NCBI GenBank assembly: GCA_021324945.1
Contig: JAJPID010000065.1
Coordinates: 85,720 to 149,719, forward strand
DNA: 64,000 nucleotides
Source: Lysobacterales bacterium
GTDB taxonomy: Bacteria > Pseudomonadota > Gammaproteobacteria > Xanthomonadales > Rhodanobacteraceae
Direction: 5' to 3'
The notes beneath the pieces are model-generated. The model had not been told where the DNA came from, searched no databases, and saw only the letters and a program-made list of their open reading frames with translations. Of the stretch, positions 32,415 to 64,000 are shown one piece after another. Numbering within the stretch: the first letter of the stretch is position 1; each line of letters starts with the position of its first letter. Both the position numbers and the translations under genes were made by a program.

Positions 32415-32490
32415 GGGGCGGTAGCTCAGCTGGGAGAGCGCTGCGTTCGCAATGCAGAGGTCGAGGGTTCGATCCCCTTCCGCTCCACCA
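32415..32490 (+). tRNA. tRNA-Ala (CGC)
   Basis: 76-nt tRNA. The acceptor GGGGCGG pairs with CCGCTCC, the D-arm is AGCTCAGCTGGGAGAGC, the anticodon arm is CTGCG-TTCGCAA-TGCAG (anticodon CGC), the T-arm is GAGGGTTCGATCCCCTT, and CCA is encoded. An integrase gene follows 179 nt downstream, so this gene was the integration target of the neighbouring island. Confidence 0.96.
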
Positions 32491-32535
32491 TTCGATACAT
32501 CCAGCGCAATCCCGAGAAGTCCCGAATTGAACCAT

Positions 32536-32562
32536 AACCCAGCGTAATTGCTGGGTTTTTTT
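32536..32562 (+). terminator. Rho-independent terminator of tRNA-Ala
   Basis: Stem AACCCAGC/GCTGGGTT with loop GTAATT, followed by a run of seven T. It lies 46 nt past the tRNA CCA and before the integrase promoter region. Confidence 0.88.
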
Positions 32563-32617
32563 ATGACTTTTGCGTCCATTTTGGTCCCGATCCGCCCTTT
32601 GACAGCGCGCGTCCGGT

Positions 32618-32665
32618 GACAGTAACTTTGACAGTAACTGCCCTTTCGCAAAGTGAGTTACTGTC
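32618..32665. promoter_or_regulatory. GACAGTAACT repeats in front of the integrase
   Basis: Two direct copies of GACAGTAACT (32618-32627, 32630-32639) and one inverted copy AGTTACTGTC (32656-32665), with the last ending 3 nt before the integrase ATG. They look like sites for an integrase regulator or arm-type integrase sites. No excisionase or AlpA-like gene remains in the island. Confidence 0.55.
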
Positions 32666-32668
32666 AAA

Positions 32669-33760
32669 ATGGCACTGACCGACACGATGATTCGCAGCAC
32701 GAAGCCGCCGCTGCGCCGATCCGACTCAGCGACAGCAGCGGCCTGTATCTCCTGCTCAATCCGAACGGCTCGCGCTGGTGGCGTTTCGACTATCGCCATG
32801 CCGGCAAACGCAAGACGCTCTCGCTCGGCACGTATCCCGACACCGGCCTGAAGCTCGCGCGCGAGAAACGCGACGACGCGCGCAAACTGCTCGCCAGCGG
32901 AATCGATCCGAGCGCGAAGCGGCAGGCCGAGAAGGTCGCCGTCGCCGACACGTTCGAGAGCATCGCACGCGAGTGGTTCGCGAAGTTCGCGCCCGGCTGG
33001 GCCAAGGGCCACGCCGACAAGATCATTAGCCGACTCGAACGCGACCTGTTCCCGTGGATCGGCAGCAAGCCGATCGCGAGCATCGAGCCGCCCGAACTGC
33101 TTGCATGTCTGCAGCGCATCGAGAAACGCGGCGCGCTCGACACCGCGCACCGCGCCCACCAGAACGCCGGCCAGGTGTTTCGCTACGCCGTCGCGACCGG
33201 CCGCGCGCAGCGCGATCCGTCCGGCGACCTGCGCGGCGCACTGCCGCAGGCGCGGCATGTTCACTACGCCACGATCACCGAGCCGGCGCGCGTCGGCGAA
33301 CTGCCGCGCGCCATCGATGGCTACCGCGGCGGACTCGTCGTGAAGTGCGGGCTGCGGCTCGCGCCACTCGTGTTCACGCGACCCGGCGAACTGCGCAAGG
33401 CGGCGTGGTCCGAGTTCGACCTCGACAAGGCCGAGTGGCGCATTCCGGCGCAGCGGATGAAGTCGCGTGTGAAGCACTTCGTGCCGCTCAGCAAACAAGC
33501 GCTCTCGATCCTGCGCGAACTGCAACCGCTGACCGGCGCCACTGACATCCTGTTCCCCGGTCGAGATCGACGGAAACCGATGTCCGAGAACACGCGCCAA
33601 CGCTCGCGCTGCGCCGCCTCGGATACGACGGCTCGGAATTCACCAGCCACGGTTTCCGGAGCATGGCCTCCACCCTGCTCAACGAGCAAGGCTGGCCGCG
33701 CGACGCCATCGAGCGACAACTCGCCCACGGCGAGCGCGACAAGGTGCGCGCCGCGTACCC
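32669..33760 (+). pseudogene. P4-type tyrosine integrase, frameshifted and 3'-truncated
   Basis: Starts MALTDTMIRSTKP, the DUF4102 N-terminus. One missing base near 32710 moves the frame; the next part has SDSSGLYLLLNPNGSRWWRF, the core-binding domain and the catalytic region FTRPGELRKAAWSEFDLD (first Arg) and RMKSRVKHFVPLSKQA. A second one-base loss near 33600 leads to TSHGFRSMASTLLNE (His-x-x-Arg) and HGERDKVRAAY with the nucleophile Tyr. The usual last 25 or so residues after Tyr are absent; helicase sequence begins directly. The enzyme cannot be functional as read. Confidence 0.88.
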
Positions 33761-61871: not shown

Positions 61872-62201
61872 TCAGCTTTCTTCCGAGCCCCCCGGCGCCA
61901 CCGTTTCGCGCTCTTTGTGCCGCAGGTGCACGCTGACGTTGTAGAGCGAAACGAACAGCGGGAAGAAATTCGAAACAATGCCGACCGAGTCGTTCTTGCC
62001 GAAGATGAAGTACGCCAAAAGCAGCACGCTGCCGAATACCGACAGGTACCAGAACGACATTGGCATCACCACTTTCTTCTGCTTTTTTGTGGCATAGAGC
62101 TGCACGAACCAGCGCGCCGTGAAGGTGAAGGTGCCGATGAAACCGACCAGTTTCCACGGGGTGATTTCAAAATCACGCAAGGCGTGCACGATAGGGTCCA
62201 T
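61872..62201 (-). CDS. Membrane protein with lipid-A-disaccharide synthase N-terminal-like (LAB_N) domain
   Basis: Protein of 109 residues with three hydrophobic helices. WKLVGFIGTFTFTARWFVQL, VVMPMSFWYLSVFGSVLLLA and GIVSNFFPLFVSLYNVSVHL match the LAB_N (PF07578) pattern. Such free-standing proteins are small and of unclear role; some are called YgjV-like. The start is ATG 62201; the codons upstream are not membrane-like. It converges on metH with 1 nt between stops. Confidence 0.8.
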   Translation of the reverse strand: MDPIVHALRDFEITPWKLVGFIGTFTFTARWFVQLYATKKQKKVVMPMSFWYLSVFGSVLLLAYFIFGKNDSVGIVSNFFPLFVSLYNVSVHLRHKERETVAPGGSEES

Positions 62202-62319
62202 GATGCGATCCCGGCGCGAAGGAAGGACGATTGTAGACCGGGACGCGGGAACACACGCGCGGCAAGACCTTCGCATTGACCAGTGTGGCGCGGGCCTTTA
62301 GACTTCCGCGGCTAAGCTG

Positions 62320-62394
62320 GGGCGCGTAGCTCAGCGGTAGAGCACTGCCTTCACACGGCAGGTGTCACAGGTTCGATCCCTGTCGCGCCCACCA
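62320..62394 (+). tRNA. tRNA-Val (CAC)
   Basis: 75-nt tRNA. The acceptor GGGCGCG pairs with CGCGCCC, the D-arm is AGCTCAGCGGTAGAGC, the anticodon stem CTGCC/GGCAG has the loop TTCACAC (anticodon CAC), the T-arm is ACAGGTTCGATCCCTGT, and CCA is encoded. Three imperfect copies of its 3' half follow in tandem. Confidence 0.96.
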
Positions 62395-62635
62395 ATTCTT
62401 GCGCAGCGATCTGCGCACAGCAGCGACCCTTCACACGGCAGGTGTCACAGGTTCGATCCCTGTCGCGCCCACCAATTCTTACGCAGCGATCTGCGCATAG
62501 CAGCGACCCTTCACACGGCAGGTGTCACAGGTTCGATCCTGAGTCGCGCCCACCAATTCTTACGCAGCGATCTGCGCATAGCAGCGACCCTTCACACGGC
62601 AGGTGTCACAGGTTCGATCCTGAGTCGCGCCTACA
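62395..62635 (+). repeat. Three tandem copies of the tRNA-Val 3' half with spacer
   Basis: Units at about 62395-62474, 62475-62555 and 62556-62635 (periods 80, 80, 81). Each has a spacer (ATTCTTxCGCAGCGATCTGC, including the CGCAG-CGAT-CTGCG hairpin) and then the tRNA sequence from the anticodon region through the T-arm to the end. Copy 1 keeps a perfect T-arm and CCA; copies 2 and 3 share a T-arm change (CTGAGT), and copy 3 loses CCA. It is not a CRISPR: spacers are near-identical and repeats are tRNA. It recalls the 3'-tRNA repeats of the E. coli tyrT (rtT RNA) locus. Confidence 0.85.
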
Positions 62636-62677
62636 GCTGCTTCGCTTTGAGGCCTTCCCTGGCCGCTTTTCCTGCCA

Positions 62678-64000
62678 TTACTTCTTGGGCACCGTCACTG
62701 CCACGAAACGGCTGGCGCCATCGCGGGAGACGAGCAGCAGCACGGTATCACCGGGTTTGAGGCCGGCCGCGGCGGATTTGAACTCGGCGACGTTATTCAC
62801 GGCCTTGCTGCCCACGCGCAGGATCACGTCGCCCGGTTGCAGGCCGGCCTGAGCCGCGGCGCCGCGTACGTCGGTGATCGCCACGCCCTCGTTGTCCTTC
62901 AGGCCGAGTTGCTGACGCATCGCCGGGGTGATCGTCTGCACGGTCAAGCCGAGCGCGGAACTGCCACCACCGCCTTGCGGGCCGAAGCGCATGGCCTGCG
63001 CCGCGCTCTGGTCGCGCGGCAACTCGCCGACTTTCACCTTGACGTTTTGTATTTTTCCGTCGCGCGAAATCTGCACGGTCGCTTCGGAGCCTGGCTGCGT
63101 TTCGCCGACCAGCGGCGGCAGATCTGCCGCGCTGTCGATGGGATGGCCGTTGTAGGCGAGGACCACGTCGCCCACCTGGATGCCCGCCTTGGCCGCGCCG
63201 CTGTCCGGCGTGACGCTGGCCACCAGCGCGCCACGTACCTGAGAAAGGTGCAGGTTCTGTGCCTTGGCGATTTCCGCGGTGACATCCTGGATCTGCACGC
63301 CCAGCATGCCGCGCGACACATAACCCTTGGTCTTGATCTGCTGCACCGCGTTCATCGCGATGTCGATCGGGATTGAGAACGAGATGCCCTGATAACCGCC
63401 GGTGCTGGAGAAGATCTGCGAATTCACGCCGACGACTTGTCCTTGCAGGTTGAACAGGGGGCCGCCGGAATTGCCGCGATTGATCGGCACGTCGGTCTGG
63501 ATGAAGGGCACGTATTGTTGATCGGCCTGGCCGAAGCTGCGGCCCACCGCGCTGACGATGCCGGCCGTAACCGAATGATCGAACCCGAACGGCGAGCCGA
63601 TCGCGACCACCCATTGACCCGGTTTCAGCGAGCGCGAATCGCCGATCGTCACGACCGGCAGGCTGTCGGCATTGACCTTCAACAACGCAATGTCGTACTG
63701 CGGATCGGTGCCGACCACTTTCGCCGTCAGTTCGCGGCGGTCGGACAAACGCACCGTCACAGTGTCGGCGTGGTCGACCACGTGATTGTTGGTGAGGATG
63801 TAGCCGTCGGCGGAAATGATGAAGCCCGAACCGATCGATTCGGCGCCTTGGTCGGGGCCCTGATCCGGCGGCTGGATCGGCATGCCGAAGAAACGCTTGA
63901 AGATGTCTGGAATCTGCTGATCGTCCGGCATGCCGTTGTCGTCGCCAATCTCGCTGGCGTGGTTGTAATGCGCCTGCACGTTCACCACGGCCGGGCCGTA
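62678..64000 (-). CDS. Deg/HtrA-family periplasmic serine protease, N-terminus beyond the window
   Basis: At least 440 residues, open at base 64000. The sequence at the edge (GPAVVNVQAHYNHA) is the start of the protease domain, so signal and first residues are outside. The triad is His in LTNNHVVDHAD, Asp in YDIALLKV and Ser in INRGNSGGPLFN. Two PDZ domains follow (MLGVQIQDVTAEIAKAQ and LGLTVQTITPAMRQQLG). It resembles MucD/DegQ-type proteases. It is convergent with the tRNA-Val array. Confidence 0.93.
   Translation of the reverse strand, partial: YGPAVVNVQAHYNHASEIGDDNGMPDDQQIPDIFKRFFGMPIQPPDQGPDQGAESIGSGFIISADGYILTNNHVVDHADTVTVRLSDRRELTAKVVGTDPQYDIALLKVNADSLPVVTIGDSRSLKPGQWVVAIGSPFGFDHSVTAGIVSAVGRSFGQADQQYVPFIQTDVPINRGNSGGPLFNLQGQVVGVNSQIFSSTGGYQGISFSIPIDIAMNAVQQIKTKGYVSRGMLGVQIQDVTAEIAKAQNLHLSQVRGALVASVTPDSGAAKAGIQVGDVVLAYNGHPIDSAADLPPLVGETQPGSEATVQISRDGKIQNVKVKVGELPRDQSAAQAMRFGPQGGGGSSALGLTVQTITPAMRQQLGLKDNEGVAITDVRGAAAQAGLQPGDVILRVGSKAVNNVAEFKSAAAGLKPGDTVLLLVSRDGASRFVAVTVPKK

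Follow-up and report, generated by a model that had tools for sequence, protein, structure and literature searches.

Why would an intact tRNA gene be followed by a row of copies of its own 3' half? The question is raised by the tRNA-Val(CAC) gene of the window, the 64,000-nucleotide stretch of a Rhodanobacteraceae genome analysed here. ARAGORN and Rfam both call the gene at 62320, with an end at 62394 that includes CCA, and three tandem units (as assembled in 67 contigs) of 80, 81 and 81 nt follow on its 3' side, at 62395-62636 (Table 1). Each unit consists of a 33-nt spacer and then of tRNA-Val from the anticodon loop onward (CCTTCACAC...). The original prediction had described a tandem tRNA-Val 3'-half array with units of 80-81 nt behind an intact tRNA-Val(CAC), and ARAGORN, Rfam, TRF and a repeat search all agree with it. 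TRF reports a period of 80 with 3.4 copies and 97% match at 62348-62620, and the repeat search finds the 32-nt segment CCTTCACAC...GATCC four times (62348, 62428, 62508 and 62589; spacing 80, 80 and 81). The best 47-nt match to the 3' part of tRNA-Val in the trailing DNA is 47/47, against a maximum of 26 in 500 dinucleotide shuffles.

Table 1. Features of the array and its surroundings in the window.
Feature	Position	Strand	Basis and remarks
Promoter-like site TTGACC, 17 nt, TAGACT	62276..62304	+	Consensus scan 9/12, predicted only; sole one in 62150-62800
Intact tRNA-Val(CAC), encoded CCA	62320..62394	+	ARAGORN; RF00005 69.4 bits
Unit 1 spacer	62395..62427	+	Leader core TGCGCACAGCAGCG at 62412-62425; aligned with relatives
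Unit 1 tRNA-Val 3' half	62428..62474	+	Equals 62348-62394, 47/47; T-arm and CCA intact
Unit 2 spacer	62475..62507	+	Leader core TGCGCATAGCAGCG at 62492-62505
Unit 2 3' half	62508..62555	+	T-arm changed (CCTGAGT), CCA present
Unit 3 spacer	62556..62588	+	Leader core at 62573-62586
Unit 3 3' half	62589..62636	+	T-arm change as in unit 2; CCA absent, ends CCTACAG
Gene with lipid A biosynthesis N-terminal domain, flanks array	61872..62201	-	PF07578
Protease-like gene, trypsin and PDZ domains, convergent with array	62678..63988	-	PF13365, PF13180

The three units are not equally well preserved. Unit 1 has the perfect T-arm and CCA ascribed to it, being identical to the gene at all 47 positions. Units 2 and 3 share the predicted T-arm change (CCTGAGT replaces CCCTGT) as well as two spacer changes, and the 81-nt stretches 62462-62542 and 62543-62623 are identical. 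This supports the proposed stepwise origin: because units 2 and 3 share changes and are identical over 81 nt, the final expansion step was probably a duplication of one or the other. The copies had been said to run to the CCA end, which is true of units 1 and 2 only, because unit 3 ends CGCGCCTACAG and has lost CCA. The hairpin predicted for the spacers fared worse: its fold shows no excess of stability over shuffled sequences (z -0.70 in copy 1, +0.25 in copy 2), and it has 5 pairs in copy 2 against 7 in copy 1. The half of unit 1 alone (62430-62474) forms an extended hairpin with a z of -2.63, which 0 of 200 shuffles equalled. No second array was found in the window's own genome, where the five other matches span 71 to 78 bases.

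The predicted likeness to the E. coli tyrT locus holds for the layout and fails for the sequence. At tyrT-tyrV, as here, a tRNA is followed by three 3'-end repeats on the same strand (rtT/RttR, RF00391), each of which reproduces the final 19 nt of tyrV from the T loop onward, at a spacing of 178 nt. Both loci thus have tandem tRNA 3' ends plus spacers on the strand of the gene and behind it, but the repeats in E. coli are 19 nt of tRNA-Tyr from the T loop with a period of 178 nt, and those of the window are 47 nt of tRNA-Val from the anticodon loop with a period of 80-81 nt. Unlike rtT, the array also carries a leader with relatives in six genera. With E values of up to 10 allowed, RF00391 did not match 62200-62800, and at the gathering score it was absent from four relatives; no Rfam family other than tRNA came above the cut-off in the window or in four relatives. 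Judged by sequence, this is an array laid out like an rtT-type tRNA-tail array, yet no member of the rtT family. Open reading frames of 132 and 136 aa also cross it (62362-62852, forward strand) and read as Arg/Ser/His-rich repeats; they are probably due to chance, and may be compared with E. coli tpr, annotated as protamine-like, which sits within the rtT array.

Distribution of the array and constancy of its leader

To the authors of the original prediction no valine example was known, and they proposed a search of related genomes. A sequence model that combines leader and half was built from 18 units (16 genomes, with units 1 and 2 of the window among the 18). It gave 49 leader-bearing units at 32.6 bits or more, the window's included, in 26 of the 233 family genomes and 6 of the 26 genera, at tRNA-Val(CAC); 10 of the 26 carrier genomes had contributed nothing to the model. 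The next matches listed are the window's own tRNA (27.1 bits) and a fifth unit of G124 with a leader and a broken half (26.7 bits), and further ones below 26.7 bits, among the matches listed, cover the tRNA part of the model only. An initial pattern had produced 18 matches in 9 of the 233 genomes, all of them behind tRNA-Val(CAC) in the 9 loci viewed; pattern matches in Planctomycetia and Akkermansia were rejected, with no tRNA-Val within 8 kb. The leader pattern with one mismatch matched 30 genomes, 16 at these arrays and 14 elsewhere only, the latter with no tRNA half behind, and the reversed pattern, used as a control, likewise matched many genomes. A 15-mer of the commonest leader had 16 matches in 8 genomes among 398 of the order, all at the tRNA-Val(CAC) locus, and neither this search nor the model in the 233 family genomes found a unit away from that locus. 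A literature search found no description of a tRNA-Val tail array among the papers listed.

Of the 23 genomes of the Luteibacter genus 8 are carriers, as are 13 of the 45 Rhodanobacter-genus genomes, both genomes of the Dyella genus, one of the 16 from the window's genus and the sole genome of each of two further genera. All carriers but one (25 of 26) have at least one unit on the contig of the tRNA. G192 has its units, and G033 one of two, on contigs that lack the tRNA, and in G176, G182 and G219 the unit stands behind an element or its remnant. Arrays with several units have periods of 80-81 (window), 116, 117, 125-128, 132 and 146 nt, and decayed units occur in five genomes (G017, G184, G196, G217 and G218). 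In G036 and in loci of the Luteibacter genus the tRNA has a neighbour that appears by eye to be the same lipid A-domain gene. Within genera presence is scattered, about as in shuffled labels: 8 of 22 loci with 6 changes against a mean of 6.7 in the Luteibacter genus, and 12 of 32 loci with 9 changes against 9.8 in the Rhodanobacter genus. These figures exclude G145 beforehand (tRNA at a contig end) and ten short Rhodanobacter-genus loci, and count G182 as lacking an array (its unit 3 kb downstream was found later) and G196 as having one though the half is lost. Two copies of other kinds were seen. G021, from another genus of the family, carries tRNA-Val(CAC) twice in tandem, both copies whole and about 28 nt apart (1501-1678 of its locus). 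G181 has a tRNA-Val-like copy (43/49) about 2.2 kb behind tRNA-Val(CAC), preceded by GGAGCAC and reaching further in the 5' direction than a plain half, which we left out of the counts.

In relatives of other genera the unit runs from the half (TTCACAC to CCA) through a GC-rich hairpin with a short T run and a variable spacer to the leader, most commonly AGCGTGCGTGTAGCAGCG or ...CAACG, after which 4 or 5 variable bases precede the next half. A GC-rich hairpin with a short T run also lies between the tRNA and unit 1 in these relatives; the window's units have no T-run hairpin. The aligned leader types have TAGCARCG or CAGCAGCG in common, from which the decayed G217 deviates. The leader of the window is a diverged form, with 11 (unit 1) or 12 (unit 2) of 14 positions identical to the commonest core TGCGTGTAGCAGCG and no match to it within one mismatch.

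Within ten arrays, 3 of 180 leader columns vary, against 68 of 546 in hairpin plus spacer (Fisher p 2e-6, to be taken as a guide only, because columns are non-independent and the units were picked by leader match, which favours constant leaders). In the half, variable columns number 16 of 200 in the 5' part and 34 of 282 in the T-arm part; the anticodon loop is altered in several units and the T-arm drifts among them. When halves were sought by their own sequence at 86 loci, the leader stood on 36 of 38 downstream copies, a count that joins two scans (at least 17/20 and 16/20 matches) reaching 1300 nt downstream where the locus allowed and omits the chance leader matches of G035 and G213. The two leaderless copies are that of G212 and the intact tandem tRNA of G021. 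Across several genera the leader is alike while the adjoining spacer diverges. The alignments thus describe a leader that has relatives in six genera and stays constant within arrays. Its base pairing is little conserved: RNAalifold retained only a 2-pair helix over 35 aligned units, from which eight decayed or odd units had been omitted by hand and six dropped in parsing, with identical ones merged. A pairing between leader and anticodon loop, drawn by eye, was rejected, as it fits the commonest leader type and fails in those of the window, G154 and G026.

Integrases, displaced halves and the origin of the units

Integration leftovers are a known source of partial tRNA genes, as stated in a passage of PMC9897764, and the anticodon loop is one crossover sub-site of tRNA integrases in the Islander account, of which we draw on parts (PMC4383910). 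As far as these parts describe them, attR fragments resemble the units in being the 3' part from the anticodon loop onward, downstream of the gene and in its orientation; units 1 and 2 moreover reach CCA. The differences from attR as described there are the 33-nt gaps, the tandem units and the lack of an integrase between copies. The method described in the same parts discards candidates of less than 2 kb. In the window the gap between tRNA and fragment is 33 nt and holds no integrase, and the five integrase-domain matches of the genome all lie elsewhere, the nearest about 29 kb off (33343-33746).

Integrases do use this gene in relatives. Behind the tRNA of G014, G193, G214 and G219 lie 8.0 to 12.4 kb that end in an integrase gene and a displaced half, which starts TGCCTTCACAC, 80 to 120 bp past the integrase. 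G183 has 3.9 kb with a frameshifted integrase before its displaced half, and in G012 the contig that carries half and integrase lacks the tRNA; PF00589 is present in the integrases of G014, G219 and G012. At least 14 genomes have a second, leaderless tRNA-half match among the matches listed, most of them known as matches alone. Neither integrase nor half was found within 10 to 19 kb in G213, G191, G210, G201 and G019, and the regions of G180 and G216 were too short for this test. The four intact element ends read TGCC ahead of TTCACAC and not the leader, so no known element would leave this leader. In G219 the leader unit follows the displaced half and is therefore probably older than the element. 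The unit of G182 lies 3 kb behind the tRNA, with no integrase match there. A C-terminal integrase fragment abuts spacer and leader in G176, as if joined by deletion. TACGGA/TACGGC pairs a few bases apart, perhaps integrase arm sites of elements, occur within about 140 nt behind tRNA-Val(CAC) at 9 of 86 loci.

Neither viral contigs nor the element ends of the relatives provided a known element end before the fragment. The leader-half pattern had 0 matches in viral contigs, and viral and phage searches gave no leader at a tRNA; matches of the leader by itself came from three viral contigs of one unrelated sequence and were set aside. The best phage and plasmid matches of the array were single stretches of 45 to 86 bases, one tRNA or part of one in the four regions inspected; we rejected them because several query copies matched one tRNA stretch, with no array. 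Within the window's genome, 41 distinct tRNAs were tested for 3'-part copies within 800 nt, two of them with just 3 and 14 bases downstream, and only tRNA-Val and tRNA-Lys showed any. About 165 nt downstream of the tRNA-Lys(TTT) gene (1501-1575 of its locus) lies a single, exact copy of its 3' part, 32 nt long and beginning within the anticodon loop. Elsewhere in the window, at 32415-33746, an integrase-like region stands behind tRNA-Ala(CGC), spread over two frames and interrupted by one stop; its PF00589 pieces span 33343-33603 and 33408-33746, and it is probably a decayed element at that tRNA.

From the sequences we lean, by a little, towards mobile-element integration as the source of the first half: an integrase would displace a tRNA half, which would end up close behind the gene. 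Recombination between identical halves would then add and remove units. Changes of copy number by recombination between the 47-nt halves are very probable, as they fit the stepwise copies, the varying numbers of units and the scattered presence.

These steps might be all there is. The arrays could be a by-product, a displaced half amplified by unequal recombination in which neither halves nor leader have an RNA role. The recurrence of displaced halves of tRNA-Val (G014, G183, G193, G214 and G219), the leaderless second matches in at least 14 genomes among those listed, the scattered presence, the decayed copies and the T-arm drift all agree with such a history. A neutral leader would nevertheless not be expected to be the most constant part of the unit, nor to be alike in several genera while the spacer next to it diverges, and we consider this explanation unlikely, though it deserves to be kept in mind. 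A more improbable idea makes the units mini-cassettes, moved at the anticodon loop by a tyrosine integrase in trans with the leader as its binding arm. It would account for halves that start at the 5' edge of the anticodon loop, for integrases that use the same tRNA segment as attachment site, and for some genomes in which the hairpin behind the tRNA differs from that behind the last unit. Yet leader and loop are separated by 4 nt in part of the units and by 5 nt in others, and the searches located no unit outside the tRNA-Val(CAC) locus. Integrases require a matching overlap, and the loop is changed in several units.

The units might also have begun as whole tandem tRNA-Val copies whose 5' half eroded into the leader. 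The intact tandem pair of G021 gives an example of a starting point, and TAGC-AGCG resembles the D-arm region by eye. In the five leaders tested, however, similarity to the tRNA 5' half is within that of shuffles (p 0.07 to 0.36), so that we rejected the leader as an eroded 5' half and regard such decayed duplications as quite improbable. Finally, an assembly artefact of a repeat, named beforehand as a refutation and conceivable in a 67-contig assembly with several tRNA genes at contig ends, is extremely unlikely, because copies carry distinct variants and arrays of this kind are also present in single-contig assemblies, G036 and G143 among them.

The array as a proposed transcribed tail

Since units are easily lost and the leader is yet constant, the sequences argue that the leader is maintained for something. 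We favour a role in a transcribed tail because the units lie on the strand of the tRNA and the arrays scanned (window, G143, G036 and G203) contain no promoter-like site. In the window this holds for a simple consensus scan of 62150-62800, in which a simple scan for terminator-like sites found none either. G143 has a single terminator-like site on the strand of the tRNA, positioned after the last unit, and five on the opposite strand; no such site was found in G036 and G203. Read-through could be cut in relatives of other genera by the hairpin and short T run that separate the tRNA from unit 1.

On our prediction one transcript would cover the tRNA and, as its tail, the array, and small leader-plus-half RNAs would be released from it. 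The available passages on comparable RNAs describe RtT as released from tRNA transcripts (PMC4986893), RrA/B/F as made between the dual terminators of rrn operons by read-through, and 3'ETS-leuZ as a tail RNA of a stable-RNA operon (Lalaouna 2015, as cited in PMC8144298, the source for RrA/B/F also). In the part of PMC8144298 concerned, RrA/B/F and 3'ETS-leuZ are released from the transcript beyond a stable RNA gene, which for the array is only proposed. The transcribed-tail role, favoured by analogy with RtT and the rrn read-through RNAs, is the weakest step of the argument. From the sequences we suggest, with some diffidence, that the leader is kept for this role, small leader-plus-half RNAs being released, and not because it acts as DNA.

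Overall, the reading we prefer, and still hold as tentative, is that of an rtT-like tail: a half that an integrase displaced, an array that recombination between halves lengthens and shortens, and transcription of this array along with the tRNA. Against it stand the unsupported fold of the leader, the lack of an element that ends in the leader, the decayed units and the scattered presence. One may go further and take leader plus half as a new class of tRNA-tail RNA gene in Rhodanobacteraceae, which with rtT would make two independent cases of domesticated integrase scars; this we think rather doubtful. Under such domestication, scars at the two known crossover sub-sites, the anticodon loop here and the T loop in rtT, would have been amplified, and expression would come only from read-through of tRNA-Val(CAC), scaled by copy number.

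What is new here is the tRNA-Val tail array with its leader; the rtT-type layout was already known. E. coli rtT is the array of this layout available for comparison, and the tRNA-Val kind adds a second one, unrelated in sequence. With a constant leader amid drifting surroundings in six genera, two questions become testable: whether small RNAs arise from the tails of tRNA transcripts, and whether the raw material comes from integrase scars behind tRNA genes. Relatives with 0 to 4 units provide a natural dosage series for this purpose.
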